Under the pieces are notes generated by a model. The model was not told the origin of the DNA, searched no databases, and saw nothing but the letters and a program-made list of their open reading frames with translations. Positions 2,519 through 48,976 of a DNA stretch of 64,000 nt are shown one piece after another (positions within the stretch are counted from its first letter, which is position 1; the number at the start of each line of letters is the position of its first letter). The stretch comes from Atopobium massiliense (lineage in GTDB: Bacteria > Actinomycetota > Coriobacteriia > Coriobacteriales > Atopobiaceae). Made by a program: the position numbers and the translations under genes. Location of the stretch: positions 62,001 through 126,000 of the forward strand of contig OPYK01000005.1 in the NCBI GenBank assembly GCA_900343135.1. Direction: 5' to 3'.

Positions 2519-3613
2519 TTAAATTTTGCTCATTTCGTTTAAGCAGGTAGAATACCAAAAACTTGCATTTGGCGGACAATATTTGCGCGCGGCAGAAGGC
2601 GTAGGTGCCGAGCCATAGCCTTGGGCAAGGCCTGCCACATGTGCGCGTATAGCCGATTGCCAGTTTTGCCAGCTGCTGTTTCCCCAGCCCCAAGCGTTAT
2701 ACGGCTTAAAGCAGGCGGCGCCTTTGGAGCTTTCGATGTTAGATATAGCTGGTGACCAGCGCGGATCGACGCCGTTATCCCAGGCTGCTTCGGCAAACGT
2801 TTTGCCCGTACCCGCAAGTGGTGATCCTGCTAGATAGTTGTTAATGCGCTGCGTCCATTTTGCCACAAAGGCCTCACGCGGCTCGGTAAGCGACACATCG
2901 GCAACCGGCTTTGAGGGCGTTTCAACTGCTACTTTATTGCCTTGCTCGGTGGTAAATTGTTTTTGCGCTTGCGCTGCTTGTTTGGCTTGTTCTTCTGCTT
3001 GTCTAGCAGCTTCTGCCTCGGCTTTTTTGCGTGCTTCAAATTCGGCTTGTGCGCGTTTTCGCACTTCAATTGCTTGGTCAAAGGCATCCTTTGCCTGGCT
3101 TTGTGCGCGCTCACTATCCGATTTTTCTTGCTCGAGGTCGCTTTGCGTTTGCTTTATGTCGTTTACTACCTCGGTTAGCTTGGTAATTGCCTCATTATTT
3201 TTATGCTGTATTTTATTGAGGTACTGCATAATGCTAATAAAATCGTTAAAATCTTTTGCCGAAAAAATAAGGTCGATAAGCGATGCATTCGACTGGCTAA
3301 ACCGATACATAACCTTTATTGAATTTGCTGCTTGCGTGCGCAATTTTGGGAGCTCATGCTGCATTTCGTTGAGTTTTTCAGTGTTTGCTTCGAGCTTTGC
3401 CTGAATTTCTTTTACACGCTGCGTGCTTTGATTGTAGGCATCGGCTGTTTGTTGTACCTGCTGTTGGAGCTGGTCGAGTGTGGGGTCTTGTGCTTGTTGT
3501 GCATCGTCTGCGTATGCAAACGTGTGGCCGGCATGCGTTGCACCACATACCACGCCGCATGCGAGACCGCATGCAACAGCGCCTGCCATTACGTTGTGTA
3601 AGATACGATGCAT
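2519..3613 (-). CDS. Secreted coiled-coil protein with lysozyme-like C-terminal domain
   Basis: 364 residues in three parts. An N-terminal signal peptide spans about residues 1-35 (small, hydrophobic, ending near FAYA). A long Ala/Glu/Lys/Gln-rich coiled coil spans about 40-245, of the PcsB/CwlO N-terminal type. A C-terminal domain at about 265-364 contains a likely catalytic Glu (E294, in NIESSKG), which resembles the Glu of SLT-type transglycosylase/lysozyme folds, then Trp/Gly-rich sequence and two late Cys. The inferred role is cell-wall cleavage outside the membrane, with the coiled coil controlling activity. The start is ATG at 3613 with GGAG eleven bases upstream. Specific bond cleavage is not established. 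Confidence 0.75.
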   Translation of the reverse strand: MHRILHNVMAGAVACGLACGVVCGATHAGHTFAYADDAQQAQDPTLDQLQQQVQQTADAYNQSTQRVKEIQAKLEANTEKLNEMQHELPKLRTQAANSIKVMYRFSQSNASLIDLIFSAKDFNDFISIMQYLNKIQHKNNEAITKLTEVVNDIKQTQSDLEQEKSDSERAQSQAKDAFDQAIEVRKRAQAEFEARKKAEAEAARQAEEQAKQAAQAQKQFTTEQGNKVAVETPSKPVADVSLTEPREAFVAKWTQRINNYLAGSPLAGTGKTFAEAAWDNGVDPRWSPAISNIESSKGAACFKPYNAWGWGNSSWQNWQSAIRAHVAGLAQGYGSAPTPSAARKYCPPNASFWYSTCLNEMSKI

Positions 3614-4015
3614 GAGAACACAATCTCCTTACTGCTTTAAGCACATGCGTTCATGCGGATACACGTGCGTTATGCTCCGTACAGATTTATATATAATACC
3701 GTATTTTGCTATTGTGCATAATACTGCCGTGTTCATACATGGGCGTTTATGGTGGTCTTGCGCATGCGCCTGTGCATAAAACGCTACGAAAAAGGCGTGT
3801 TTGCACAGCTACATGCATTATGTGTGCAAAACACGCATTCGTGTGGAGTTGCTATGTAATTACGCGCAGTATGCATGGGCATGCGTGTATGCATGCAGGT
3901 GTAGCATGTGTGCGTTACACCGTGCATTACCTGTTCGGCATGTACGCCATGCGCAGATATTGTACTATGCGTTTGCAGTAACACGCCGCCTTTAACACGC
4001 TATCTTACCGGTTAC
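3614..4015. other. Intergenic region between two minus-strand genes
   Basis: 402 bases without a credible gene; overlapping small ORFs here lack ribosome sites. It contains the terminator of the stress-protein gene (3787-3836) and, nearer 3614, an AT-rich minus-strand stretch around 3680-3725 (TTATGC, 17 bases, TATTAT) that could be the promoter of the coiled-coil gene. The remainder is rich in GCATGC/ATGCAT-like short palindromes. Confidence 0.5.
3787..3836 (-). terminator. Rho-independent terminator of the stress-protein gene
   Basis: On the minus strand, arms at 3823-3836 and 3795-3807 pair over 13 bp with one bulged A. A CCTTTTTC tract follows directly. It lies about 180 bases beyond the stop codon at 4016. 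Confidence 0.7.
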
Positions 4016-4462
4016 TTACTTTACAACCAGCGTGTCGCATTGCGTATAGCGTGCCAAAAACGTGGAAATTGAGCCAAGCAGCGCATACTTAATGGTCGAA
4101 AGCCCGCGCGCTCCGCAAATAATAAGGTCGGGTTTAAGCACATCGAGCATGTCTTCTTTGAGCGTTTCGCGAATACGTCCCGCTTTTACCAGGACATCTA
4201 CGTTCGGAATATCGGGGTCGGCTCTAAGCGCTTCCACATCGTGTTCAATCGACGTTAAAAAACTCTCTTGCAAGCTGTTAAGCAAATTGGCTGGATACGT
4301 GCTTGCTGTTTCGAGCGTGGATGAATCGACAACATGCGCAATGGTGAGCTTTGCGTGATACGTGCGAGCAACATTAGCTGCACGTTCAAGAACGTAATCC
4401 TGATTTTCGCTTCCATCGAGCGCTACAAAAATTGATGAATATCCGCCTGCGTGCTCTGTCAT
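4016..4462 (-). CDS. Universal stress protein, UspA family
   Basis: 148-residue cytoplasmic single-domain Usp. It begins with the typical hydrophobic strand and acidic turn (SIFVALDGSE) and ends with the ATP-binding signature G-x2-G-x9-G-S (GARGLSTIKYALLGS) followed by a final strand. This is the ATP-binding subclass; its role is stress endurance by an unknown mechanism. The ATG at 4462 is preferred over the upstream in-frame ATG at 4483 because AAGGAG at 4472-4477 sits nine bases before it. It is transcribed alone, with its own terminator near 3800. Confidence 0.92.
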   Translation of the reverse strand: MTEHAGGYSSIFVALDGSENQDYVLERAANVARTYHAKLTIAHVVDSSTLETASTYPANLLNSLQESFLTSIEHDVEALRADPDIPNVDVLVKAGRIRETLKEDMLDVLKPDLIICGARGLSTIKYALLGSISTFLARYTQCDTLVVK

Positions 4463-4704
4463 GTGAATCAACTCCTTGAACATAGGTGCAGCTGATACGA
4501 CGTGTATCGTGCAGTATCTCCAAACCTAGCCTTAGTGTAAACTACTCGCACCTCGCGCACACGTAAATTTTGTGTGAGCGGTTGTAGTAGGCGCGTGATT
4601 GGCGCAAACTAGCACCCGAGTATCTTCGTGAGCCATGGGCACGTTGCCTGCCCGCGCGCACACAACAACTTCAACCACGTGAGCTACAAGCACAAAGGAG
4701 TTAT

Positions 4705-5727
4705 ATGGCCGCTGCAATATCCCTTGTTGAGCTTATAAAAGCTGCATTGTATGGTGTTATTGAGGGCGTTACCGAATGGCTGCCCATTTCGTCTACAGGG
4801 CACATGCTGCTTTTTGAAAAATTTGTTCAGCTGCAGGTAAGCGCTCAGTTTTGGCACATGTTTTTGGTGGTAATTCAGCTGGGTGCCATTTTGGCTGTGT
4901 GTGTTACGTTTTGCAAACAGCTCAACTTCCTTGCACCTTCGCTTACGCCTTCTGCGCGCAAAAACACGCTTGTGCTGTGGGCAAAAATTATTGTTGCTTG
5001 CATTCCTGCAGCTGCGGTGGGTATTCCGCTCGACGATTGGATGGATGAGCATCTTTCGAGCCCCTATATTATTGCGGCGGCGCTTATCGTGTATGGCGTG
5101 GCATTTATTGTGGTTGAGAAGATCTTTACTGCGCGCGAGCGTGCGCTGGGTGCGCGTGAAGCTACAGGGTTGGCAGCTGCGCCAGCTATGCCAGCTGGTG
5201 CTGAGCCGTTGCCTCATCATGCGCCAAAACATATGGCTGTAGCTGCTCATGATGCATGTGCGTATACTGATGCCGCCCATGCTGGTGCTCGTGTTGGTAC
5301 TGATGCAGCAGCAGAAACAAGCCGCATAACCACCCTTGAGGCGCTTAACTGGAAAACAACCATTGGCATTGGCATATTTCAGGTGCTTTCGATTGTGCCG
5401 GGCACGTCGCGCAGCGGCTCAACCATTTTAGGTGCCCGTATGCTGGGCTGTTCACGCAGTGTTGCTGCACAATTTACCTTTTTGCTTGCGGTGCCCGTTA
5501 TGGTGGGGGCAAGCGCGCTTCGTCTTGTTAAATATATTCTTAAGAAAAATATCCCAACGCCCAACGAAGCTGCTATTTTGGCGGTTGGCTGTATTGTGGC
5601 GTTTGTGGTGTCGCTTTGTGTTATACACGGCCTTATGCGCTACATTAAACGCCACGATTTTCAGGTGTTTGGCTGGTATCGCATTGTGCTTGGCATTATT
5701 ACCATTGCATACTTTGCGCTTGTGTAG
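4705..5727 (+). CDS. uppP: Undecaprenyl-diphosphatase
   Basis: 340-residue integral membrane protein of the BacA/UppP family, which recycles undecaprenyl pyrophosphate to the monophosphate carrier for peptidoglycan synthesis and gives bacitracin tolerance. Both signature motifs are present: the Glu-rich EGVTEWLPISSTGH near residues 20-33 and PGTSRSG near residue 231. A hydrophilic Ala/His-rich insertion of roughly 60 residues (about 150-215) interrupts the middle of the protein and makes it longer than the usual 265-280 residues. AAAGGAG precedes the ATG. Function is confident; the insertion is unexplained. Confidence 0.95.
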   Translation: MAAAISLVELIKAALYGVIEGVTEWLPISSTGHMLLFEKFVQLQVSAQFWHMFLVVIQLGAILAVCVTFCKQLNFLAPSLTPSARKNTLVLWAKIIVACIPAAAVGIPLDDWMDEHLSSPYIIAAALIVYGVAFIVVEKIFTARERALGAREATGLAAAPAMPAGAEPLPHHAPKHMAVAAHDACAYTDAAHAGARVGTDAAAETSRITTLEALNWKTTIGIGIFQVLSIVPGTSRSGSTILGARMLGCSRSVAAQFTFLLAVPVMVGASALRLVKYILKKNIPTPNEAAILAVGCIVAFVVSLCVIHGLMRYIKRHDFQVFGWYRIVLGIITIAYFALV

Positions 5728-6193
5728 GGAAGGCACGCACGCTCCTTGCTGCGTGCTTGCGTCGTAGTCCCTGTACCCTGCGTGTGTTGTTACATAAGCT
5801 GAGTTCACAACCTGCGCACAACCTGTCCACATGCTGCGCATACGACATTCACGAGGTGCGCACAACAAAGCCACATGATGCGTATTATCGTGCACGGTTG
5901 CGCGCGTTTGTCCGCAATGTGAAATATGTCTGCGCGCTTGGGTATAAGCAGGTGTACATAGCACTAAACATGCAGTTACAGCCCATATTTGCTCGACAGG
6001 CTTATATGCAGTGTTTGCAACCATCACAAGGGTGCGCGCGCGTATCGCGAAATATTACGATTGTGAAACATTCAATAATTCGTAGGCTGTTTTGTGCGTT
6101 TTGTACAGTACTATGCAACAAATCAGTATTTTGGTGTATCAATTACGTCATCAATTGCATACGCCATCGACTTTGCCTTAAGGAGGTAGCATT
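5728..6193. other. Intergenic region upstream of amino-acid ABC operon
   Basis: 466 bases without a supported gene; an open frame running through it lacks coding character. Just after uppP, GCACGC (about 5735) can pair with GCGTGC (about 5753), a weak hairpin without a U tract. Near the operon a direct repeat ATCAATT occurs at 6138-6144 and 6150-6156, a 12-bp spacing that would suit a regulator binding one DNA face. No recognisable riboswitch was found. Confidence 0.4.
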
Positions 6194-24855: not shown

Positions 24856-27630
24856 ATGAATCTTATTGTTACCGAGAAACATGATGCTGCGCAGCAGATA
24901 GCTCGCTTACTTTCAACTGTGGGCAGCCCCAAGGCCGATAAGGTGTACGATACGCCTATCTACCGCTTTACCTATCATGGTGATGACTGCGTGTGTATTG
25001 GACTTCGCGGTCACATTATGGTGCCCGATTTTCCCGTGTCGATGCATTTTGGCCCGCGAAAAGGCTGGTATGCTACGTCGCAAGATGGCGAGCGACTTCA
25101 AAGTGCCGCGCCTGACACGCTACCTCGCCCGCCTTACGACAAAAAACGCAAGCCCTACCTCAGTGACGGTATTGATATTAAGGGTTGGAAACTCGACAGC
25201 TTGCCCTACCTTATTTGGGCGCCTATCGAAAAGCTGCCAAGCGAAAAGGGCATTATCCGCGCGCTTAAAAACCTTGCTAAAAAGGCAAGCTCCATTGTGA
25301 TTGCTACCGACTTCGATAGGGAAGGCGAGCTTATAGGCTCAGATGCGCTGCACCAAATGCAGCAGGTAGCACCCGATATTCCGGTGTTTCGTGCGCGCTA
25401 TTCGGCGTTTACCAAACAAGAAATTGACACGGCGTTTTCGCATTTAGTTACCCTCGACCAAAATTTGGCCGATGCGGGTGAAAGCCGCCAGTATATCGAC
25501 CTTGTGTGGGGTGCTGTGCTTACGCGCTACTTAACGATGGCGCGTTTTAGCGGTCTTGGCAACGTACGCTCAGCAGGTCGTGTGCAAACGCCTACGCTTG
25601 CTCTTGTGGTTGAAAAAGAGCGTGAGCGGCAAGCGTTTATTCCCGAGGATTATTGGGTTATTTCGGCAACATTGCACGAAGGCGCTGAAGGCGCTGGCGC
25701 TCATGCTGATAGCGACGCTGATAAAACCGCTGCTGATGCAGACGGCAGCTTTAAGGCAACGCACACAACCGCGCGTTTTACCAACAAATCCGAGGCAGAT
25801 GCTGTGTATGCAGCCGTTAAAGACGCCAGCTGTGCGCGCATCACAAACCGCGAAGAAAAGTCGCGCACCACACGGCCTCCCGCGCCGTTTAACACTACAT
25901 CTCTGCAAGCTGCTGCTGCAGCAGAGGGGCTTTCACCTGCGCGAACGATGCGTATTGCCGAGTCGCTTTATATGGAAGGTTTAATTTCATATCCGCGCGT
26001 TGATAACACGGTGTATCCGTCGTCGCTTAATTTGCGTGAGTGCGTAACCATGCTTAAAAAGGTGCCGCAGTATCGTCCATATTGTGAACAGCTGTTGGCG
26101 CAGCCGCAGCTCCACGCTACGCGCGGCAAGCAGCAAACTACCGACCACCCGCCCATTTACCCAACGGCGCCTGCCGACCCGCAAAAGTTGCAGCCCGCAG
26201 CTTGGAAGCTGTATAACCTTATCGCGCGCCGCTTTTTAGCCACGCTGTCGCAGCAGTCGGTGAGTTTGCAAACAAAATTAACAATTGATATTAATGAGCA
26301 GCCCTTTGTTGCTACGGGTGTGGTGCTTGCAACGCCTGGTTTTCGTGCCATTTACCCATTTGGTCTGCGTAAAGACGACGTGCTTCCCAATTTGCAGCCG
26401 GGTGATGTGGCTTCGGTATTGGCTATTCAGTACGATGCAAAACAAACGGAGCCGCCCGCGCGGTATAGCCAGGGACGCCTTATTCAGGAGATGGAAAAGC
26501 GCGGCTTGGGCACCAAATCAACGCGTGCGTCTATTATTCAGCGTTTGTACGACGTAAAGTACCTTAAAGACGACCCCGCATGTCCGAGCCAGCTTGGTTG
26601 TGCGGTTATTGATGCGCTCTCGCAGTATGCGCCGCACATAACAACGCCCGAGATGACAGCACAGCTCGAAGAGGATATGACAAACGTTGCCGAAGGAAGA
26701 GACACGCAAACGAGCGTGGTTTCTCACTCGCGCGCATTATTGGCATCGATGATTGACGCGCTTATTGCGCACGTAGATGACGTGGGCGAGGCGCTGAAAG
26801 ATGCTGTTACTGCTGATGCAAAAGTGGGCGTGTGCCCAACCTGCGGCAAAGACCTTGTGATGAAAAATTCGCCCAAAACGCGGTCGCATTTTGTGGGCTG
26901 CTTGGGCTGGCCTGATTGTTCGGTAACCTATCCTGTGCCAACGGGCAAAATTGAAGCACTCCAGGGCGACGCTGCGCGTTGCAGTGTGTGTGGCGCCCCC
27001 AAAGTTAAGGTGCATCCGTTTCGTGCGCGTGCGTATGAACAGTGCATTAACCCAGCGTGTGCATCCAATCAGGAGCCCGATTTGGTGGTTGGCACGTGCA
27101 GCGTGTGTGCGCCGTTGAACAAGCCTTGCAAGCTTATTGCGCATAAAAGTGAGCGCACCGGCAAGCGCTTTATACGTTGCGAAAATTATGAGGAGTGTCA
27201 GGTGAGCTATCCTTTGCCGCAGCGAGGCGAGCTTGAAGCAACGCAGGATACCTGCGACGCATGCGGAGCACCTGAAGTTATTGTGCACACGCAGCGTGGC
27301 CCTTGGCGCATTTGCGTGAATATGAATTGTCCTACCAAAGCTGCGGTGGCGTCGGGTGCGCGTGGACGCGGGCGAAGTGCGAGTGCTAAAAGTGCTGGTA
27401 GTAAGGCTAAAAGCAGCAAGGCGGCCAAGAGTACTGGTGCAGCTAAGACTTCAAAGACTACTAAGACTACGCGCGCTACCAAAACTACCAAAACTACTAA
27501 AACTACTAAAACTACTAAAACTACTAAAACTACCAAAACTACCAAGGTAAAAACAACCCGTGCAAAAGCTGTTGCTGCAGACGCTGTATCAGCCGCAGAT
27601 AGCGCCTCTACCACCACCCCGTTGGCATAG
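24856..27630 (+). CDS. topA: Type IA DNA topoisomerase I, archaeal-like, with zinc ribbons and Lys/Thr tail
   Basis: 924 residues. Toprim domain at 1-170 (LIVTEKHDAA start, acidic ATDFDREGELIG near 151). The catalytic region GLISYPRVDNTVYP places the active tyrosine near 378. That motif is the archaeal/reverse-gyrase form, where most bacterial TopA has ITYMRTDS. From about 659 come four Cys-rich ribbons (for example CPTCGK and CSVCGAP). The last 90 residues are Ala/Ser/Lys then (Thr-Thr-Lys) repeats, a basic DNA-binding tail. It relaxes negative supercoils. A palindrome GTTGTACGTACAAC lies in the upstream spacer at 24760-24773. Confidence 0.92.
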   Translation: MNLIVTEKHDAAQQIARLLSTVGSPKADKVYDTPIYRFTYHGDDCVCIGLRGHIMVPDFPVSMHFGPRKGWYATSQDGERLQSAAPDTLPRPPYDKKRKPYLSDGIDIKGWKLDSLPYLIWAPIEKLPSEKGIIRALKNLAKKASSIVIATDFDREGELIGSDALHQMQQVAPDIPVFRARYSAFTKQEIDTAFSHLVTLDQNLADAGESRQYIDLVWGAVLTRYLTMARFSGLGNVRSAGRVQTPTLALVVEKERERQAFIPEDYWVISATLHEGAEGAGAHADSDADKTAADADGSFKATHTTARFTNKSEADAVYAAVKDASCARITNREEKSRTTRPPAPFNTTSLQAAAAAEGLSPARTMRIAESLYMEGLISYPRVDNTVYPSSLNLRECVTMLKKVPQYRPYCEQLLAQPQLHATRGKQQTTDHPPIYPTAPADPQKLQPAAWKLYNLIARRFLATLSQQSVSLQTKLTIDINEQPFVATGVVLATPGFRAIYPFGLRKDDVLPNLQPGDVASVLAIQYDAKQTEPPARYSQGRLIQEMEKRGLGTKSTRASIIQRLYDVKYLKDDPACPSQLGCAVIDALSQYAPHITTPEMTAQLEEDMTNVAEGRDTQTSVVSHSRALLASMIDALIAHVDDVGEALKDAVTADAKVGVCPTCGKDLVMKNSPKTRSHFVGCLGWPDCSVTYPVPTGKIEALQGDAARCSVCGAPKVKVHPFRARAYEQCINPACASNQEPDLVVGTCSVCAPLNKPCKLIAHKSERTGKRFIRCENYEECQVSYPLPQRGELEATQDTCDACGAPEVIVHTQRGPWRICVNMNCPTKAAVASGARGRGRSASAKSAGSKAKSSKAAKSTGAAKTSKTTKTTRATKTTKTTKTTKTTKTTKTTKTTKVKTTRAKAVAADAVSAADSASTTTPLA
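27478..27546 (+). repeat. 9-bp coding repeats in the topA tail
   Basis: About seven and a half copies of a 9-bp unit, ACTACTAAA or ACTACCAAA, each encoding Thr-Thr-Lys. Near-identical units suggest recent slippage, so tail length probably varies between strains without breaking frame. Confidence 0.85.
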
Positions 27631-39062: not shown

Positions 39063-42000
39063 ATGCCTTTTGTTCATCTTCATAATCATTCACAGTTTTC
39101 GATATTAGATGCTGCAACATCCATACAGCGTATGGTAAAAGCTGCTGTTGAGCGTAACATGCCCGCACTTGCCCTTACCGATCACGAGTATATGTTTGGT
39201 GTGCCCGACTTTGACTTGGCGTGTCGCAGCTACAACGATGCGGCTGCCGATATGAAACAGTGGAAGCACGACGTTGAGTGTTTTAAAAAGAAATGGGATA
39301 ACCCCGAGCCTGCGGCTGATGCTGCGGATGCGCCGCGCCATGAGCAGGTGCACAGACAGTGGCACGAGGATATGACCATTTGGAATGAAACGCACGATAT
39401 TGCCAAGGTGCAAGAAAATAAACCGCCGCGCATTATCACGCCAATTTTTGGCTGCGAGGTTAACCTTATACCGGATAGTTGTATTGAGCGTGGTACTACG
39501 CAAACGCGGTATCACTTGCCCTTGCTCGTAAAAAATAACCAGGGCTACCACAACCTTATGAAGTTGGTGTCTGAAGCCTCAAACAAAATGATGTATTATC
39601 GTCCGCGCGTTACCCTGGATATGCTGCGTACCTATCACGAGGGGCTTATATGCCTCAGCGGCTGCTACCAGGGTGTTATTGCACGCATGGTAGTGCAGCA
39701 CGCGATGGATGAGGCAGAAGGTTGGGCACGCGCGCTGCAGGACATTTTTGGCGATGATTTTTATCTCGAACTCCAAGACCACAATATTTCGCTCGACTCG
39801 TGGGGCGGCATGACCGAAACCGATATTGCACACACCATTTACGACATGGGCAAAAAGCTGGGCATTGCCACGGTTGCAACTAATGACAACCACTATTTTT
39901 CGCGCGACGATGTTGAAACGCGTGATTTGTTAAGCTGCATTTCTGCAGGTACGCACCTTGATGAGTCGTATCAAACCACGCTGCCGGGTTCTGAGTACTA
40001 CATGAAAACGCAAGAGGAAATGTCCTCGCTGTTTTCGTGGGCACCCGATGCTATTGAGCAAACCTATGCCATTGCGCAAAAGTGTAATTTTGAGCTCGAC
40101 TGGACAAACATGTACCTGCCCAAGTTCCCTGGTCTTCGTGAAGGCGAATCATCGGAAGATCGGTTTCGTGCCGAATGTGAGGCAGGTCTTGCGCGTAAGT
40201 ATGGCAAGGATTGGGAACATACGGTTATTAACGGCGTTAATGTAAAGGAACGCTTTGAATATGAGTATGGCGTTATTTGTTTTAAGGGCTTTGCCGATTA
40301 CTTTTTAATCGTGCAAGAGTACGTGCGCTGGGCAAAGGAGCACGGTATTGGCGTTGGACCGGGACGTGGTTCGGCGGCAGGTGCTATTGTTGCCTACGCG
40401 ATGGACATTACTACCTTTGACCCGCTCGAAAACGGGCTGATGTTTGAGCGTTTTTTGTCGCCCGAGCGTACGGAAATGCCCGATATCGATATGGACTTCG
40501 ACGATGAGCGCCGCTTGGAAGTGGTGCAGCACGTGCGTGAGCTGTATGGCTCGGAGCGTGTGTGCCACGTTATTACCTATTCAACCATTAAGGCAAAACA
40601 AGCGATTAACGATGCTGCGCGCGTGCTTAATTACCCTGTTTCGCTGGGACAAAAGTTGTCCAAGATGATCTCAAACGATCCTAAGGTAAAACTTTCTTAT
40701 GTACTCGAAAAAACCGACGGTAAAGAGGACATGTACAACCCCGATTTTTTGAAGGAGTACGAAACAAATGCCGATGAGCGGCGCATCATTGATGCTGCCC
40801 GCGCAATCGAAGGCCTTACGCGTGGGGAGGGCGTGCATGCCTGCGCCGTGCTTATTGCTCCAACACCCGTAAACGATCATGTGCCAACCAAGCTCGATAC
40901 CAAGGGTGGCGTAGAAATTACGCAGTACGAAGGCCATTCGGTGGCGGATATGGGCCTGTTAAAGATGGACTTTTTGGGCTTGCGTACGCTTACAGTTATC
41001 TCAAAAACGCTCGAAAATATACGCACGCGCTACCCCGATTTGTCGTTGATAGACACGTTTTCGCCCACCGTTAAAGCGGCGCTTAAAGAGGGTGCAACCT
41101 CGATTGATATCGACCCGGCAAAGATTGATTTTAGCGATCCTGCCATTTATAAGCTGCTGAGCTCGGGTCATACGGCAGGCGTGTTTCAGGTTGAGTCGGA
41201 AGGCATGACGGCAACCATTAAAAATATGAAGCCGCGCGAGTTTCGCCAAATTGTTGCTCTTATTGCGCTGTATCGCCCCGGTCCTTTGGGTGCAGGTATG
41301 GTTACCAGCTACATTAACCGTATGAATGGCCGCGAGCCTGTTGTGTTTTACGACGACCGCCTTTCGGAGATTTTGGACGAAACCTACGGCACTATTGTGT
41401 ACCAAGAGCAGGTTATGCAAATTTCGGTAAAGATGAGCGGCTTTTCGAAGGGCGAAAGCGACTCGCGTATTCGTAAACCGGTGGCAAAAAAGAAGATTGC
41501 ACTGCTCACAAGTACTATTTTTCACTGGGAAAATGGTAAAGACGAAACTACCTACGATCACTGGATGGGTGGCGCGAAGGCAAACGGCTACAAAGAAGAC
41601 GTTGCGCAAAAAATTTGGGACGATGTCCTGGAATTTGCAAGCTACGCGTTTAACAAGTCGCACTCGGCAGGATACGCCATTTTGGTTATGCAAACGGCCT
41701 GGTTAAAGGCACACTTTCCGCGCGAATACATGGCGTCGGTGCTTACGTCGTACATGGGCAAAACCGATAAAATTACTCACTACATTTCGGCGTGTCACCA
41801 TGAAGGCATCGATATTTTGCCGCCCGATATTAACGAATCGCGTCGCGATTTTACTGCAACGGCGCAGGGCGTGCGCTTTGGCTTTGCCGGTATTCGCGGC
41901 GTAGGCGAGCAAGTAGGCGAGGCCATTATGCAGGAACGTGCAGATCATGGCTCATTTTTGCACCTGCACGATTTTGTTAATCGTAGCGATTCTGCCTGCG

Positions 42001-42971
42001 CAAATAGGCGCGTCGTTGAGGCGCTCATTAAAGCGGGCGCATTCGATGCATCGGGGTATCCGCGCTGCCAGCTTATGGGTTTTGTTGATAAAAACAACCC
42101 TAAAAACATTCTTGATAGTGCAGCTAAACAGCAAAAAAGCCGTTCGATGGGGCAGCTGTCGTTGTTTGATTTGTATGGCAACGTTGAAGGCTCGGGCTTT
42201 GAGCAGCATATTCCACCTATCGATCCAAACGATAGCTGGGATCAGGGCTTTATGCTGGCGCAAGAGCGTGAGGTGCTCGGCATTTACGTAAGCGACCACC
42301 CGCTTCGCCCATATCATGTGGCAGTTGAGCGTTCGCGTGATGTTTCAATTTCGCAGCTTGAGGAAACGCGCGAGGTGCACGACGAAGACGGCTCGCTTCT
42401 GCGGCTTGAATATACCGTTGCCGATCACCAAACCGTGCGGTTAGCTGGTATTATTTCGGCCTCAAGCGTTATTGTTACGCTTACCAAAAAACAGCAGCAA
42501 ATGGCGCGTTGTATGTTGAGCGATGAAGAAGCCGAAGTTTCGATGGTGGTATTTCCAAAAGTGTACACGGGCTCTGCGTCGCTGTTGCGTGGCGAAGATG
42601 CGCGGGCAACCGATGATGCAAGCGATACCATATTTGTGCAGGTAACGGGCACTGTTGAGCGCTCCGATAGGGGGCTGCAAATTATTGCGCAAGAGGTGGT
42701 GCCGCTTAATCGTGATGTGTCGTACAATTCTATTCACCTGCTTGAAGTGCGGCTTGCAAGCTCAAAGCTTACGCAATCAACCATCCGCGCGCTTAAAGAC
42801 ACGCTTGACAGATATCCGGGGTATGACAAAGTGGAGCTGTTGTTTGAAACGTCCGATCACGAGTGCATGCATATGGAAATACCTTGTCAAATTAACGCAC
42901 AAAGTAAACTGTTGCGTGCAGAAATTAAGCTCTTATTTGGCGAAGACTGTACGATTGCGGTGTTTGCATAG
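39063..42971 (+). CDS. dnaE: DNA polymerase III alpha subunit
   Basis: 1302 residues, DnaE1 class. PHP domain at the start (FVHLHNHSQFSILDA) with a charged insertion of about 80 residues (50-130) relative to typical DnaE. The palm has GPGRGSAAG (about 433) and PDIDMDFDD (about 473) with catalytic aspartates. Helix-hairpin-helix and OB-fold regions follow, ending in a tau-binding-like tail. AAGGAGC precedes ATG. It is the replicative polymerase core. Confidence 0.96.
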   Translation: MPFVHLHNHSQFSILDAATSIQRMVKAAVERNMPALALTDHEYMFGVPDFDLACRSYNDAAADMKQWKHDVECFKKKWDNPEPAADAADAPRHEQVHRQWHEDMTIWNETHDIAKVQENKPPRIITPIFGCEVNLIPDSCIERGTTQTRYHLPLLVKNNQGYHNLMKLVSEASNKMMYYRPRVTLDMLRTYHEGLICLSGCYQGVIARMVVQHAMDEAEGWARALQDIFGDDFYLELQDHNISLDSWGGMTETDIAHTIYDMGKKLGIATVATNDNHYFSRDDVETRDLLSCISAGTHLDESYQTTLPGSEYYMKTQEEMSSLFSWAPDAIEQTYAIAQKCNFELDWTNMYLPKFPGLREGESSEDRFRAECEAGLARKYGKDWEHTVINGVNVKERFEYEYGVICFKGFADYFLIVQEYVRWAKEHGIGVGPGRGSAAGAIVAYAMDITTFDPLENGLMFERFLSPERTEMPDIDMDFDDERRLEVVQHVRELYGSERVCHVITYSTIKAKQAINDAARVLNYPVSLGQKLSKMISNDPKVKLSYVLEKTDGKEDMYNPDFLKEYETNADERRIIDAARAIEGLTRGEGVHACAVLIAPTPVNDHVPTKLDTKGGVEITQYEGHSVADMGLLKMDFLGLRTLTVISKTLENIRTRYPDLSLIDTFSPTVKAALKEGATSIDIDPAKIDFSDPAIYKLLSSGHTAGVFQVESEGMTATIKNMKPREFRQIVALIALYRPGPLGAGMVTSYINRMNGREPVVFYDDRLSEILDETYGTIVYQEQVMQISVKMSGFSKGESDSRIRKPVAKKKIALLTSTIFHWENGKDETTYDHWMGGAKANGYKEDVAQKIWDDVLEFASYAFNKSHSAGYAILVMQTAWLKAHFPREYMASVLTSYMGKTDKITHYISACHHEGIDILPPDINESRRDFTATAQGVRFGFAGIRGVGEQVGEAIMQERADHGSFLHLHDFVNRSDSACANRRVVEALIKAGAFDASGYPRCQLMGFVDKNNPKNILDSAAKQQKSRSMGQLSLFDLYGNVEGSGFEQHIPPIDPNDSWDQGFMLAQEREVLGIYVSDHPLRPYHVAVERSRDVSISQLEETREVHDEDGSLLRLEYTVADHQTVRLAGIISASSVIVTLTKKQQQMARCMLSDEEAEVSMVVFPKVYTGSASLLRGEDARATDDASDTIFVQVTGTVERSDRGLQIIAQEVVPLNRDVSYNSIHLLEVRLASSKLTQSTIRALKDTLDRYPGYDKVELLFETSDHECMHMEIPCQINAQSKLLRAEIKLLFGEDCTIAVFA

Positions 42972-43161
42972 GCTATCGAGTATTATAGTATGACTACCGC
43001 GTTTGAACGTTGTGCGCAGCTGGCACCACGTCTGTTTGATCGCTCCGGTGTTTGGGCAATTCGTTTGAGATTGTAGCAAAAAACAGCTCGCATTCGTGCA
43101 GCGTTTATACGCGGAGCCATTCCACGCGGGTTTATGCTGAACTATTGGCAAGGAGGCTTAT

Positions 43162-46100
43162 ATGAGAATAGCGATTCCACAATGTACCATGTGGGCACAC
43201 AGTCAAAAAGAGGCGCTGTATCGTATTATCTCCGAAGATGCGCGTGCGCATCGTGCGCATGCCGATATTGTTGTGTGGCCGCTTGCTGCCTCGTGGGCGC
43301 TCGAGCCAGGCGCGCCTGCTGCACTAGCGTCACATGACCAGGATGTTGAGCCTGCTGTTCCGGCAGGTAGTGCTGCAGATGTTGCAACTCCTACGACGCA
43401 CACCAGTCACAGTACGCTCGAAATTCTTCACATTCTTGCACGTACTTTGCACTGTCCTACAAGCATTAGCATGAAGCTGATTGATTCACCTTGCGCGCGC
43501 TACATGTCATTTTTCATCTATAATAAGCACGTTTATGCAGGTAACGCCTTTGTATATGGTGGTCGCACATGGCGTGTGGTTTATTCGCGTGAAGACCTTG
43601 AGCGCATCCAAAAGCCCGCCGTGCAGGATGCTACCCAAAAGCAGCGCGCGTCGGCGGCGTTATGCGACATTGTTATTTTGCGCGATGCGCACCCCATACT
43701 GCTTGAGCAGTTTTGTAACGATGCGTCTGATATGCTGCATATGCTACCGCATGCCGTTGAGTCTATGGTTGCTTCCAATCCACATATTCCATCGAGTGTA
43801 TCTACGCTTGTGTATGCGCAGGCACCCGGCTTTGATACCGATCATTGCTATATGGGTGGCAGTTTTGTTGCGCTGCCACAAGCACAGGTTGTTGCGCGCG
43901 CATCGGCGCAAGACGATGAGCTGCTGCTTGCCGATATTGATGTGCCTGCTATAGTATCTGCGCCGGCAAGCGATCCCAATCCTGGTGTTCTTCTCCCTAC
44001 TACTAATAACGACCTTGAACTTTCCCTTGTAGCTGAAGCCTATCGCACCGCTGCACGTGAACATGCACAGACGCTCGAAGAAGAAAAGCTACGCGCGCCC
44101 GTATTGGTAAACCACTGTGCGGATGTACCGCATTCACTTCGCGCGGTGTATGCCCTTGTGTGGAAGTGTCTTACCTACGCGGTTGTTGATTATATGAAAC
44201 GGAGTGCGCATGCAGATGCTGCGTGTTATGTAGACGGCACGCTTGCAACTAACCTTTTGTGTGTGCTTCTTTGCGACGCGCTAGGAAGCGAGCACGTGCA
44301 TGTTTATCTGCCGCCGAGCCCCATGTGTACGGGTAAGCCTGGTATAAGTAAGCTTATGAAACAAACGGGGGTACACGTGCATACGAGCGACATAACGCTC
44401 CGCGAATATGTGTCTAATGCACCAAAAGCGCAGATAGCCTTAACAAAGTTGCCAATGGTACATGCCGATGTTGCGCAGTGGAGTGCCAATAATGGGTATG
44501 CACTTTTTTCTTCGCTCACCAAACTTTCGTGCCTTACGCGTCGCATGAGCGATCTTGTTACTGCTGCACTATGCCTGCCCTTTGGTGATTTGTACTTTTG
44601 TGATATTTTGCGGCTGGCAGCTGCGCGTAACGACATGTCGCCTGTATTGCCTAGCTGCGTGTATTCCAAGATCGAGCGCACACAGCTTGCAGATGAGTAT
44701 CAACAGATACAGCTTGCAGGTCCAAAAGTACTCGACAATGCATTGAACTGGGCATTGTTTATGATGCACCCGCGCTATCGCCGTGCCATGCTGCATAAAC
44801 AGCCTCGTATTAATCGCAATCCTTCGCCTGAACGCAGTATTATGTGTGAGTATCTCGCAAACGCAGCGGGTACCCGTCGTGCGCAGTTTCCCGTTGTGCA
44901 GCTGAGCGTGGTGCCGTTGCGTGATGTTTTGACGTGCACACATAAACCGTATGCGCATCGGAGCGTTATGGAGCACTATGTTGATTCTTCCTGTGCTGAT
45001 ATTGATACACAGCTTGCTGATGGGTTGCGTGCTGATGGAACAGATGCAGCTACAACGAGCACGCATGCTGCTACAAACGACAGTATTGCGGAGCTTGCAC
45101 AAGCGTTTGGCATAAAAAACGTTGATGAGTTTTCGCAGCTCCTTCACATGGTAAATGGTGATGACGATAACGATACTACCAGCGATACTACCAACGGTGC
45201 CAATAATCCAAACAAGCGTGGTGGCGATGATGTGCCCAGCGACGATGCCGGCGATATAGATGATGACTATGACGATTATGACGATGATGAACTTACTGAC
45301 GAACAATACGATGCATACTACAATGACAGCTATTACGCGGACGGTACCGATCCCGATGATGACGAAGATGAGGAAAACGAAGCCCGAGCACAAGCGATGC
45401 GGCGTTTTTCCGATTTTCTTTTCTCTTCTGATGACAAGGACGATAGTGATGACGCAGACGAGCAAACAAGCGATAGAGACTCTGATAGTGATGATGACGA
45501 GGGGCATATAACTGGCGTTATGTATATTAATGGCGCGAGCAATCCCGAAGACATTGCCAAGCAGTTGCACGATGTGTTTTCTCGCATAAAAAAATCGGCG
45601 CGTGACCACAACGGTGATGTGCATCACATAGAGGCATCTGCTGAGCTTACCGATATGGATGGCGAGCCTATTGATGTATCAAAGTTGCCCCCCGAAATTC
45701 GCAACAAAATTGAAGCTATTGAACATGCACTTACGGAAATGGGTGCCGAGATTTCGCATTCGCATGCTCATAAGGATGAGGATGACGAACTTGATGAGCT
45801 TGATGACCTTGATGAAGCAGATGCGGATGATGAGCCTCATGTGCCCGATGTGCAAGACACCATTCAGCGTGCACTTAATGCAGCAGGTGCCGGTTCGCTT
45901 GACGAATTTTTGCAGAATTTGGATGAGGACGACCTCGATGCGCAGCTGTATAGACCTGCAGGTAGGGTGGATGCAGATGGTGTGGTGCATGCGCCAACAC
46001 CAGACGAGATGATTGTGCATTTAATGTCGTCCATCGAAGTTGCTGCCCATGGTAACCCCGATTCAGGTTTTTACATTATGGATGCATTATTAAATTCGAT

Positions 46101-46398
46101 AGAATCAAAAGAGCAGGTAACAGCGGCAGACAAACGCCGCGCAAAAGAACATTTGGTGTTTTTGCTCGGCTATATTGTTGATTGTATGCATACGCGTGCA
46201 TATTTAGAGGAGCTCGACCAGCGTGACGCAGCCGCGAAAGCACGCGCTGATGCACAAAACGACAAAGGGCATGACATGCATACGTCCACGTCGAAGGGGT
46301 TCAATGACGCTGCACTTGACGCTGTAATTGCAAGCACGCAGGGCGTTGTTAATGCTGAGCACCACAATGCATCTAACAATCCGTTTTCTATTAATTAG
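43162..46398 (+). CDS. NAD+ synthetase-derived pseudoenzyme with acidic tail (unknown function)
   Basis: 1078 residues. Residues 1-285 follow a nitrilase/glutaminase fold (RIAIPQC; ADIVVWP near 33; GGSFVALPQ near 231). Residues 290-615 follow the glutamine-dependent NadE synthetase domain (LLCDALGSEHVHVYLPP; LPFGDLYFCDILRLAAARND; VLDNAL). The active sites appear lost: the nitrilase Glu in VVFPEL is replaced (VVWPLA), the Cys-Glu-Asp motif is not recognisable, and the SGGxDS P-loop reads VDGTLATN (about 356). From about 615 to the end is an unrelated tail with Asp/Glu tracts (about 665-782 and 871-895) and helical stretches. AAGGAGG precedes ATG. It sits between dnaE and ruvC. Homology is by eye; function is unknown. 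Confidence 0.75.
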   Translation: MRIAIPQCTMWAHSQKEALYRIISEDARAHRAHADIVVWPLAASWALEPGAPAALASHDQDVEPAVPAGSAADVATPTTHTSHSTLEILHILARTLHCPTSISMKLIDSPCARYMSFFIYNKHVYAGNAFVYGGRTWRVVYSREDLERIQKPAVQDATQKQRASAALCDIVILRDAHPILLEQFCNDASDMLHMLPHAVESMVASNPHIPSSVSTLVYAQAPGFDTDHCYMGGSFVALPQAQVVARASAQDDELLLADIDVPAIVSAPASDPNPGVLLPTTNNDLELSLVAEAYRTAAREHAQTLEEEKLRAPVLVNHCADVPHSLRAVYALVWKCLTYAVVDYMKRSAHADAACYVDGTLATNLLCVLLCDALGSEHVHVYLPPSPMCTGKPGISKLMKQTGVHVHTSDITLREYVSNAPKAQIALTKLPMVHADVAQWSANNGYALFSSLTKLSCLTRRMSDLVTAALCLPFGDLYFCDILRLAAARNDMSPVLPSCVYSKIERTQLADEYQQIQLAGPKVLDNALNWALFMMHPRYRRAMLHKQPRINRNPSPERSIMCEYLANAAGTRRAQFPVVQLSVVPLRDVLTCTHKPYAHRSVMEHYVDSSCADIDTQLADGLRADGTDAATTSTHAATNDSIAELAQAFGIKNVDEFSQLLHMVNGDDDNDTTSDTTNGANNPNKRGGDDVPSDDAGDIDDDYDDYDDDELTDEQYDAYYNDSYYADGTDPDDDEDEENEARAQAMRRFSDFLFSSDDKDDSDDADEQTSDRDSDSDDDEGHITGVMYINGASNPEDIAKQLHDVFSRIKKSARDHNGDVHHIEASAELTDMDGEPIDVSKLPPEIRNKIEAIEHALTEMGAEISHSHAHKDEDDELDELDDLDEADADDEPHVPDVQDTIQRALNAAGAGSLDEFLQNLDEDDLDAQLYRPAGRVDADGVVHAPTPDEMIVHLMSSIEVAAHGNPDSGFYIMDALLNSIESKEQVTAADKRRAKEHLVFLLGYIVDCMHTRAYLEELDQRDAAAKARADAQNDKGHDMHTSTSKGFNDAALDAVIASTQGVVNAEHHNASNNPFSIN

Positions 46399-46447: not shown

Positions 46448-47101
46448 ATGATTATTCTTGGCATCGACCCCGGGCTTGCGCATACGGGCTGGGGCATTAT
46501 CGAAACGAAGGGCAGTGTGTGCCGTGCGCGCGCGTACGGCTGCATTACCACGCATGCTGCAGAATCGCTTGATCGCCGATTGGGTAGCATTTACGATGGC
46601 ATTGAGCAGGCAATTTGTACATATGCGCCTGCGGAAGTGGCTATCGAAAAGATATTTTTTGGCGAGAACACCGCTTCGGCAATTGCTACTGCCCATGCCC
46701 GCGGCGCGGCACTTGTTGCATGTGCACGAGCGGGCATTGTACTGGGCGAGTACACGCCTATGCAGATAAAACAGGCTGTTGTTGGCACGGGCTCGGCAGA
46801 TAAGCGCCAGGTTATTTATATGGTGCGTACGATTCTTAAACTCGACCACGATCCCAGACCCGACCACTGCGCTGATGCACTTGCCGCAGCTATTTGCCAT
46901 CATAATGCTCAAAGCACGCAGCGCTTGGCGTATAAATCGGCATCTGTGCAAATGCTCGAGCAGCTTACTGCGCAGCAGGCCTACGAGCGTGCGCTTGCAC
47001 GCGAGCACACGCAGGCGGCAACACAGGCGCACGCCGATTATGCGCATGGTAAGGGTAACATTATGAACAAAACACGACAAAGCAGGAGAAATAGCTTATG
47101 A
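46448..47101 (+). CDS. ruvC: Holliday junction resolvase RuvC
   Basis: 217 residues. RNase H-fold resolvase with catalytic Asp in LGIDPGLAHTGWG (D7), Glu in AIEKIFFG and the terminal Asp pair in PDHCADALA. The last 50 residues are an Ala/Gln-rich extension. The ribosome site is weak. The TGA stop overlaps the ruvA ATG (ATGA, 47098-47101). Confidence 0.95.
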   Translation: MIILGIDPGLAHTGWGIIETKGSVCRARAYGCITTHAAESLDRRLGSIYDGIEQAICTYAPAEVAIEKIFFGENTASAIATAHARGAALVACARAGIVLGEYTPMQIKQAVVGTGSADKRQVIYMVRTILKLDHDPRPDHCADALAAAICHHNAQSTQRLAYKSASVQMLEQLTAQQAYERALAREHTQAATQAHADYAHGKGNIMNKTRQSRRNSL

Positions 47102-47724
47102 TTGTACAGCTTTCGGGAACGCTCGTTGAGCTTACAAGCTCACACGTAATAATTGATGTGTCTGGCGTTGGCTATGAGCTGGGCATTTCGGCAAGCTGCG
47201 CAGCACACTTGCCAGCCGAAAAGGGAAGTCCGCTTGTGTTGCTCACACGTATGATCGTAAAAGAAAATGCCCTTGAGCTGTATGGATTTGCCGACGCGTA
47301 TGAGCGTCTTATGTTTGATACCATTATTAGCATCTCGGGCGTGGGGCCAAAACTCGCCCTAGCAATTTTGTCGCTGTATACGCCTTCGCAGCTGCTAACT
47401 ATTGCACAAACGCAGGATGTGGCGGCGATGTCGCAGGTAAGCGGTGTTGGCAAAAAGAAGGCACAGCGCCTGCTGCTTGAGCTTGCCGACATGTGTGCGC
47501 GCACAGGTGAGCTGCAAGGATGCATGTCTGCAGCAGCTCCAAGCGCAAAAGCAGCGTCTTCAGAGCAGCGTGGCGACCCCATGTTTGATGCGCGTGCAGC
47601 GCTTTCGTCGATGGGCTTTACAGCAGTAGAAATTGAGCGCGCGCTTGAAGGCTGCAGTACCGACAATCAAACAGCAGAATCGCTGGTAGCGCATGCATTA
47701 CGTAGTCTTGCGCGAGGGTTATAA
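47098..47724 (+). CDS. ruvA: Holliday junction branch migration protein RuvA
   Basis: 208 residues. N-terminal OB domain (GTLVELTSSHVIIDVSGVGYEL), two helix-hairpin-helix motifs (ISGVGPKLAL and VSGVGKKKAQRL) and the C-terminal domain that contacts RuvB (ALSSMGFTAVEIERAL). It is translationally coupled to ruvC. It binds the four-way junction and loads RuvB. Confidence 0.96.
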   Translation: MIVQLSGTLVELTSSHVIIDVSGVGYELGISASCAAHLPAEKGSPLVLLTRMIVKENALELYGFADAYERLMFDTIISISGVGPKLALAILSLYTPSQLLTIAQTQDVAAMSQVSGVGKKKAQRLLLELADMCARTGELQGCMSAAAPSAKAASSEQRGDPMFDARAALSSMGFTAVEIERALEGCSTDNQTAESLVAHALRSLARGL

Positions 47725-47866: not shown

Positions 47867-48976
47867 ATGTGGGAAAACACGCACGACAATTTATTTGAAG
47901 ACGAGCCTGGTACGCAGGGTGATATGCGCACAGCTGCATATGCTTCGGCACACGAAAGTTCGCCCGCCGCTGCACTACCGCGTAATGTTGACCCTACCTG
48001 CACCGATGAGGATATTGACGTTGAGCGTTCGCTTCGTCCCGAAACGCTGAGCGATTATTGCGGACAAACGCGTGTCCGCGAAAACATGCGTGTGCTTATT
48101 TCGGCTGCAAAAGAGCGCAACGAAACCCTCGACCACGTGCTTTTTTCGGGTCCTCCGGGTTTGGGTAAAACTACGCTTGCATCCATCGTGGCGCACGAAA
48201 TGAACGCGCGCCTTAAAACAACGTCGGGTCCTGCCATTACGCGTACGGGCGATTTAGCAGCGCTGCTTACCAATCTTGAGGAAGGCGACGTGCTGTTTGT
48301 CGACGAAATCCACCGCCTTAATCACCAAATTGAAGAAGTGCTCTATCCCGCCATGGAAGACTTTGTGCTCGACATTGTTATTGGTAAAGGCCCGGCAGCA
48401 CGCTCGATTCGTCTCGATTTGCCGCACTTTACGCTGATTGGCGCTACTACACGCACCGGTTTGCTCAGCGGTCCTTTGCGCGACCGTTTTGGCATATCCT
48501 ACCAGCTTGATTACTATTCTGTGGAGGAGCTTGCCGCCATCGTTACCCGCTCGGCGGGCATTTTGCAAGTGGACATCGACAGTCAGGGTGCGCTCGAAAT
48601 TGCTTCGCGTTCGCGCGGTACGCCGCGTTTAGCAAACCGCCTACTCAAGCGTGTGCGTGACTATGCACAGGTGCGGGCTGCGGGTACTATTAGCTGGGAC
48701 GTTGCAAGCGATGCGCTTAAATTTTTTGAAATCGATGAGCTTGGCCTCGATTGGATGGATAAAAAAATTCTCGATGCGCTGTGCAAAACGTTCCGCGGCC
48801 GTCCGGTGGGTCTTACCACGCTGTCGTCTGCAGTGGGCGAAGATCCGGCAACGCTTGAGGATGTGTACGAGCCATATTTGCTGCAACAAGGCTTGCTCGT
48901 GCGTACGCCCCAGGGAAGGCAAGCTACGAGTATGGCGTTTGAACACGTAGGATTACCTGCGCCAATGTCGCAGTAA
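47867..48976 (+). CDS. ruvB: Holliday junction branch migration ATPase RuvB
   Basis: 369 residues. AAA+ ATPase with Walker [10 protein letters not shown] (about 94), Walker [10 protein letters not shown], sensor 1 IGATTRTG, arginine finger GPLRDRFG and a C-terminal winged helix (TPQGRQAT). An acidic N-terminal extension of about 45 residues precedes the family's usual LRPETLSDY start. AAGGA precedes ATG. Confidence 0.96.

Follow-up and report, generated by a model that had tools for sequence, protein, structure and literature searches.

A NAD synthetase-derived pseudoenzyme with an invariant FSxN end, retained between dnaE and ruvCAB in Atopobiaceae

Introduction

HisZ is a catalytically dead paralogue that regulates its active partner, HisG, while SSB carries a flexible acidic tail that ends in an invariant tip of a few residues, DDDIPF. 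Glutamine-dependent NAD synthetases (NadE) are either octameric (type 1) or dimeric (type 2) (PMC7196632). The type-2 enzymes are feedback-inhibited by NAD+, and PII is a known docking partner that regulates them (PMC7196632).

The protein described here, which together with its relatives elsewhere we call X, is encoded in a 64,000-nucleotide stretch of the Atopobium massiliense genome (the window; contig OPYK01000005.1, positions 62,001 to 126,000). Across its body, X has the same architecture and fold as the dimeric type-2 enzymes (PRK13981; PDB entries 5kha, 4f4h and 3n05), and so the same kind of body as that to which the regulatory protein PII docks (PMC7196632). However, it lacks the glutaminase Glu, Lys and Cys as well as the SGGxDS loop, it scores far below the NCBIfam cut-offs, and it has an extra tail ending in FSxN. 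With the octameric type-1 enzymes (the Mycobacterium tuberculosis type, 3dla) it has the two-domain superfamily in common, but it is not derived from them, matches them far more weakly and lacks their active sites. Like HisZ, X is a dead relative that seems to be kept as a non-catalytic partner, although its fold is different, its FSxN tail predates the loss of activity, and its own partner is a putative one. The likeness to SSB lies in the flexible acidic tail and the invariant C-terminus of a few residues; the tip is F-S-x-N rather than DDDIPF, X has no DNA-binding domain, and here too the partner is a proposed one.

Among open-licence papers, none was found that describes a NadE pseudoenzyme from these bacteria. 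The families that carry X are gut, oral and rumen bacteria, and they would illustrate clearly how an essential enzyme can give way to a different type of the same enzyme and yet be retained as a pseudoenzyme by whole families, with intermediate stages of loss visible in living relatives.

Results

The gene and its NadE-like body

A preliminary description of the window had pointed to a strong ribosome-binding site and an unbroken frame, and both are as described (Table 1): the 1078 codons contain no internal stop. Promoters and terminators at the locus show no excess over shuffled sequence. Elsewhere in the window, successive Lys-Thr-Thr repeats (27450-27630) form the end of a topoisomerase ORF (24856-27630).

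Table 1. Features of the X locus, in window coordinates.
Feature	Position	Strand	Basis
dnaE, upstream neighbour of X	39063..42971	+	
dnaE-X gap, 190 bp; desulfoferrodoxin site in most relatives, none at this place in the window genome	42972..43161		
Ribosome-binding site AAGGAGG	43150..43156	+	sequence, 5 nt before X ATG
X, NadE-derived pseudoenzyme, 1078 aa	43162..46398	+	ORF; family profile; structure
Former glutaminase domain, nitrilase-like, about aa 1-263	43162..43950	+	alignment, AlphaFold model
VVWPLA (aa 37-42), in place of the PExxxTG motif with the catalytic Glu	43270..43287	+	alignment with intact NadEs
NAD-synthetase-like domain, about aa 324-600	44131..44961	+	alignments, model
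VDGTLATN (aa 357-364), in place of the SGGxDS ATP-pyrophosphatase loop	44230..44253	+	alignments
Lys454, counterpart of Lys in NKSE; 93/93 keep Lys	44521..44523	+	alignment
Acidic C-terminal tail, expanded and largely disordered, 477 aa, net -90	44965..46395	+	sequence, model
FSIN, the C-terminal F-S-x-N motif	46384..46395	+	sequence of relatives
ruvC, 49 bp downstream of X	46448..47101	+	
ruvA	47098..47724	+	
ruvB	47867..48976	+	

As a single query, the window protein finds almost no matches in Pfam, NCBIfam or PDB, so that a family profile is required. In single-sequence searches, it reaches 24.9 bits against NCBIfam PRK13981, the cut-off of which is 479 (a relative, L036, reaches 101 bits), and in Pfam it matches CN_hydrolase alone, below the cut-off. 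By contrast with the single query, the profile of the family (45 members) matches PDB 5kha with an E-value of 3e-60 over profile positions 2-515. The structure models, all of monomers, agree. The AlphaFold model of a 620-residue relative (pLDDT 89, pTM 0.88, with the tail disordered) matches NadE 3n05 in Foldseek (E-value 1e-30, TM 0.67/0.73); the model of the window protein itself is poorer (pLDDT 61 over 1078 residues), and the best match of its body is again a NadE, 4f4h (1.1e-18). X thus has the two-domain, nitrilase-like and synthetase fold of NadE that had been read from the sequence by eye, and the lack of any structural match, which would have told against that reading, is not what we see.

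Loss of both active sites

The preliminary description had also taken the nitrilase Glu and Cys and the SGGxDS loop to be replaced (by VVWPLA and VDGTLATN in the first and last case), and the alignment agrees. The residues listed for the aligned columns include the glutaminase Glu, Lys or Cys in none of the 93 aligned relatives, nor does SGGxDS occur in any of these 93; close homologues with the residues intact, which would have suggested a sequencing error, were thus not found. At the aligned columns, the P-loop Ser, second Gly and Asp are gone, other residues stand in for the Glu of NKSE and the Asp of YGD, and the Lys of NKSE is retained throughout. Short NadEs of other orders, taken as class-level outgroups, have all the sites, with the glutaminase triad intact in 5/5. 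By these residues, and by its score against PRK13981, X would be placed outside the catalytic NadE enzymes.

Distribution and selection

X is present in 134 of the 140 Atopobiaceae genomes (search plus a second pass with the family profile), the genera sampled including Olsenella, Atopobium, Olegusella, Thermophilibacter and Kribbibacterium. Of the six genomes in which it is missing, five are assemblies that are 57-82% complete, and the other one lacks dnaE and ruvC as well. A second family within the order (f3, probably Coriobacteriaceae) has X in every one of 67 genomes, with about 310 bits among the matches listed. One apparent joint loss of X and ruvC was dropped from consideration: in G025, a 99%-complete single-contig genome, dnaE is not found either, which indicates that the region, probably masked or missing, is absent from the data rather than truly co-lost.

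In 20 close pairs, dN/dS ranges from 0.03 to 0.38 (simple Nei-Gojobori estimates; the window copy, having no close relative, lies outside these pairs and is the most divergent of the set, with a branch of 3.69 in the maximum likelihood tree). X is kept by purifying selection as a folded protein, and with conserved loss of catalytic residues and wide retention it is a pseudoenzyme. The earlier view that this is a real, maintained protein and not a broken copy therefore stands, and it is far from being confined to one strain.

The C-terminal region

The C-terminal region of the window protein is 26% Asp/Glu and has a net charge of -90 over 477 residues. The long acidic region that had been remarked on is thus there, but it is not a feature of the family, except for its last four residues: in 44 relatives, the tail that follows the body has 66-128 residues (median 88) and a median net charge of -11. 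Since a tail of 477 acidic residues is private to the window genome among the genomes compared, it cannot be the function of the family; it may simply hold the same FSIN tip on a longer and more highly charged tether.

The most telling feature of X is this tip. All 92 relatives with a complete end terminate in F-S-x-N-COOH, mostly as PFSEN, and the invariant motif gives a direct handle toward the partner of X. In the AlphaFold model of the relative these residues are disordered and unplaced, which may resemble the behaviour of a docking peptide; packing of FSxN into the dead active site, which we considered, is unsupported, as the tail is unplaced in the model.

The motif is also found on a NadE of the still-active type, that of family f10, which has SGGxDS intact and ends in FSKN, so the tail was present before catalysis was lost. 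NadEs of family f9, with the synthetase site intact, have comparable ends, such as FLDN and ISAN, although this likeness could be convergent, because f9 is not sister to X in the tree. In L205, L206, L223 and further f9 genomes, there is a single NadE with a dead glutaminase domain, an intact synthetase site and the end (F/I/W/Y)(L/S)xN. L205 additionally has, beside relA and NadE, an ORF in which a RecJ-like exonuclease is joined to a DEAD/Helicase_C helicase (2571-5855).

Ancestry

Loss of the sites appears stepwise across the order. In all 32 aligned short NadEs of the same order (families f2 and f5-f10), the glutaminase Glu and Cys are gone and SGGxDS and NKSE are kept, and in X of the Atopobiaceae (f1) and f3 both sites are lost. 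Nearly all of these short NadEs that were checked are the sole NadE of their genome, with G140 and G281 having both kinds. In the maximum likelihood tree, X forms one group (100/100) beside the short NadEs of its own order, which are of the type-2 kind; its closest neighbours are two NadEs, that of G396 (family f10) and one from f5 on a long branch.

A long NadE that is separate from X and has its SGGxDS and CED motifs intact is found in X-bearing genomes and co-occurs with X in nearly all Atopobiaceae genomes. The window genome has a single intact NadE of its own (L001, with SGGLDS; 98.7 bits), located on a different contig from X, which answers the question of whether a second, intact nadE exists. 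By its length and its likeness to the M. tuberculosis enzyme, the long NadE is probably of the octameric type 1, and its intact motifs indicate that the NAD-making chemistry is supplied by this separate protein. The staircase of site loss, taken together with the position in the tree, leads us to infer that X was the native type-2 (dimeric) NadE of the lineage, was supplanted by the long type and degraded afterwards; the glutaminase site, which is already gone throughout the order as sampled, was the first to be lost, and loss of the synthetase site followed in X.

Gene neighbourhood

The usual gene order in relatives is dnaE - desulfoferrodoxin - X - ruvC - ruvA - ruvB, which looks like an operon for oxidative stress and DNA repair, desulfoferrodoxin being a superoxide reductase. 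The gene is directly followed by ruvC on the same strand in 117 of the 130 family genomes that have both on one contig, in keeping with the conserved synteny that had been anticipated. Desulfoferrodoxin lies at most 400 bp upstream of X, on the same strand, in about 61 of the 74 loci with enough flank (an approximate count, some genomes being represented twice), and often only 7 bp away.

Desulfoferrodoxin also adjoins the active NadE of f10, near which neither ruvC nor dnaE was found; the pairing thus predates the loss of catalysis, and desulfoferrodoxin is apparently an older neighbour of X than ruvC. The DNA-repair setting assigned to X in the preliminary description is accordingly right in that its place between dnaE and ruvCAB is conserved, but the link to ruvC is the younger one. 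RuvC as the original partner of the tail is likewise weakened as a candidate, the tail existing on an active NadE away from ruvC. In the window, no match to desulfoferrodoxin was found between dnaE and X or anywhere else in the 64 kb, and in several other genomes, too, it is not adjacent to X while the tail is kept.

Variations in the neighbourhood include an SNF2-family helicase between dnaE and desulfoferrodoxin in a genome of the second family (L184, 4102-7575) and a DUF4012 gene between X and ruvC in L059 (11108-13120), with similar spacing in other genomes of genus g30. The desulfoferrodoxin genes of L184 (7588-8088) and L207 (10325-10723) are directly upstream of X or of an active NadE of the ancestral type.

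Discussion

We give about even credence to X being a non-catalytic adaptor or regulator that docks by its FSxN tip onto a conserved partner, in a cluster for oxidative stress and DNA repair. The NadE-like body, which would be dimeric as in type-2 NadE, would display a flexible acidic tether, the FSxN-COOH tip of which would dock onto the partner, and X would be made together with the superoxide-defence and recombination genes. The best candidate partner may be desulfoferrodoxin, or a protein working with it, because both the pairing of desulfoferrodoxin with NadE and the FSxN tail predate the loss of catalysis. In the window genome, the tether would have been stretched to its 477 acidic residues, desulfoferrodoxin no longer being adjacent. 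Two observations speak against the adaptor: the tail is kept where desulfoferrodoxin is not adjacent, the window genome included, and the invariance of Lys454 and a few pocket residues would fit ligand binding. Going further, we suggest only tentatively, and with more doubt than belief, that X founds an undescribed family of NadE-derived docking proteins, in which FSxN links superoxide detoxification by desulfoferrodoxin with Holliday-junction repair (ruvCAB) and replication (dnaE), in the Atopobiaceae and in a sister family, and in which a displaced essential enzyme has kept a second job that existed before the loss of catalysis.

That same Lys, present in 93/93 relatives, and several other invariant positions of the synthetase domain could instead belong to a metabolite sensor, which would bind NAD+, NaAD or ADP without turnover and signal the NAD or redox state to the repair and stress genes; feedback inhibition of type-2 NadE enzymes by NAD+ (PMC7196632) offers a precedent. 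We think this unlikely, since the losses in the P-loop (Ser, second Gly and Asp), of the Glu of NKSE and of the Asp of YGD make canonical binding of ATP and Mg by X improbable, and sensing alone leaves the FSxN end unexplained.

Dead paralogues regulate active partners in other pathways, as HisZ does HisG, and co-occurrence with the long-type NadE would also suit X as a regulatory subunit of that enzyme. However, the tailed protein of the f10 genome is the only NadE there, so binding of the long type is not what FSxN arose for, and in the window genome the two genes are on different contigs; a subunit role seems to us more unlikely still. PII was also considered as a general partner, by way of its regulation of type-2 NadE. 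It has a match in 60 of the 140 Atopobiaceae genomes and none in 54 of the 101 good-quality genomes of the family or in the window genome; lacking a match in more than half of the good-quality genomes, it cannot be the general partner of X.

The acidic DNA mimic or scaffold suggested in the preliminary description, which would modulate RuvC, AddAB or DnaE, draws on the net charge of -90 and on the adjoining repair genes, with ruvC so regularly next downstream. As a conserved function it fails, tail length and charge in the other members (66-128 residues, about -11) ruling out DNA mimicry for the family, and X is also kept in genomes where ruvC has the opposite orientation, lies far away or is on a different contig; even in the broader form of a scaffold we regard it as very unlikely.

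Re-purposing of the NadE scaffold for a different reaction at a new active site could account for the strictly conserved Lys, Asp, Arg and Ser in the synthetase-like domain. But every catalytic residue recognised in the two domains is either variable or gone, and no new invariant nucleophile is seen in the alignment of relatives, making such an enzyme highly improbable. That X is a decaying pseudogene on its way to being lost, as its divergence might suggest, above all in the window copy, is scarcely tenable given frames that are open in nearly all genomes, its presence in about 200 genomes of two families, the low dN/dS and the invariant C-terminus.

Many members of X match the Pfam and NCBIfam NadE models weakly and so are at risk of being annotated as NAD synthetases; misannotated, they may enter metabolic models or surveys of drug targets as redundant copies of NadE. 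In the type-2 NadEs aligned across the order, the glutaminase site has been lost and the domain retained, and this order-wide loss raises the question of where these bacteria obtain the nitrogen for NAD synthesis.
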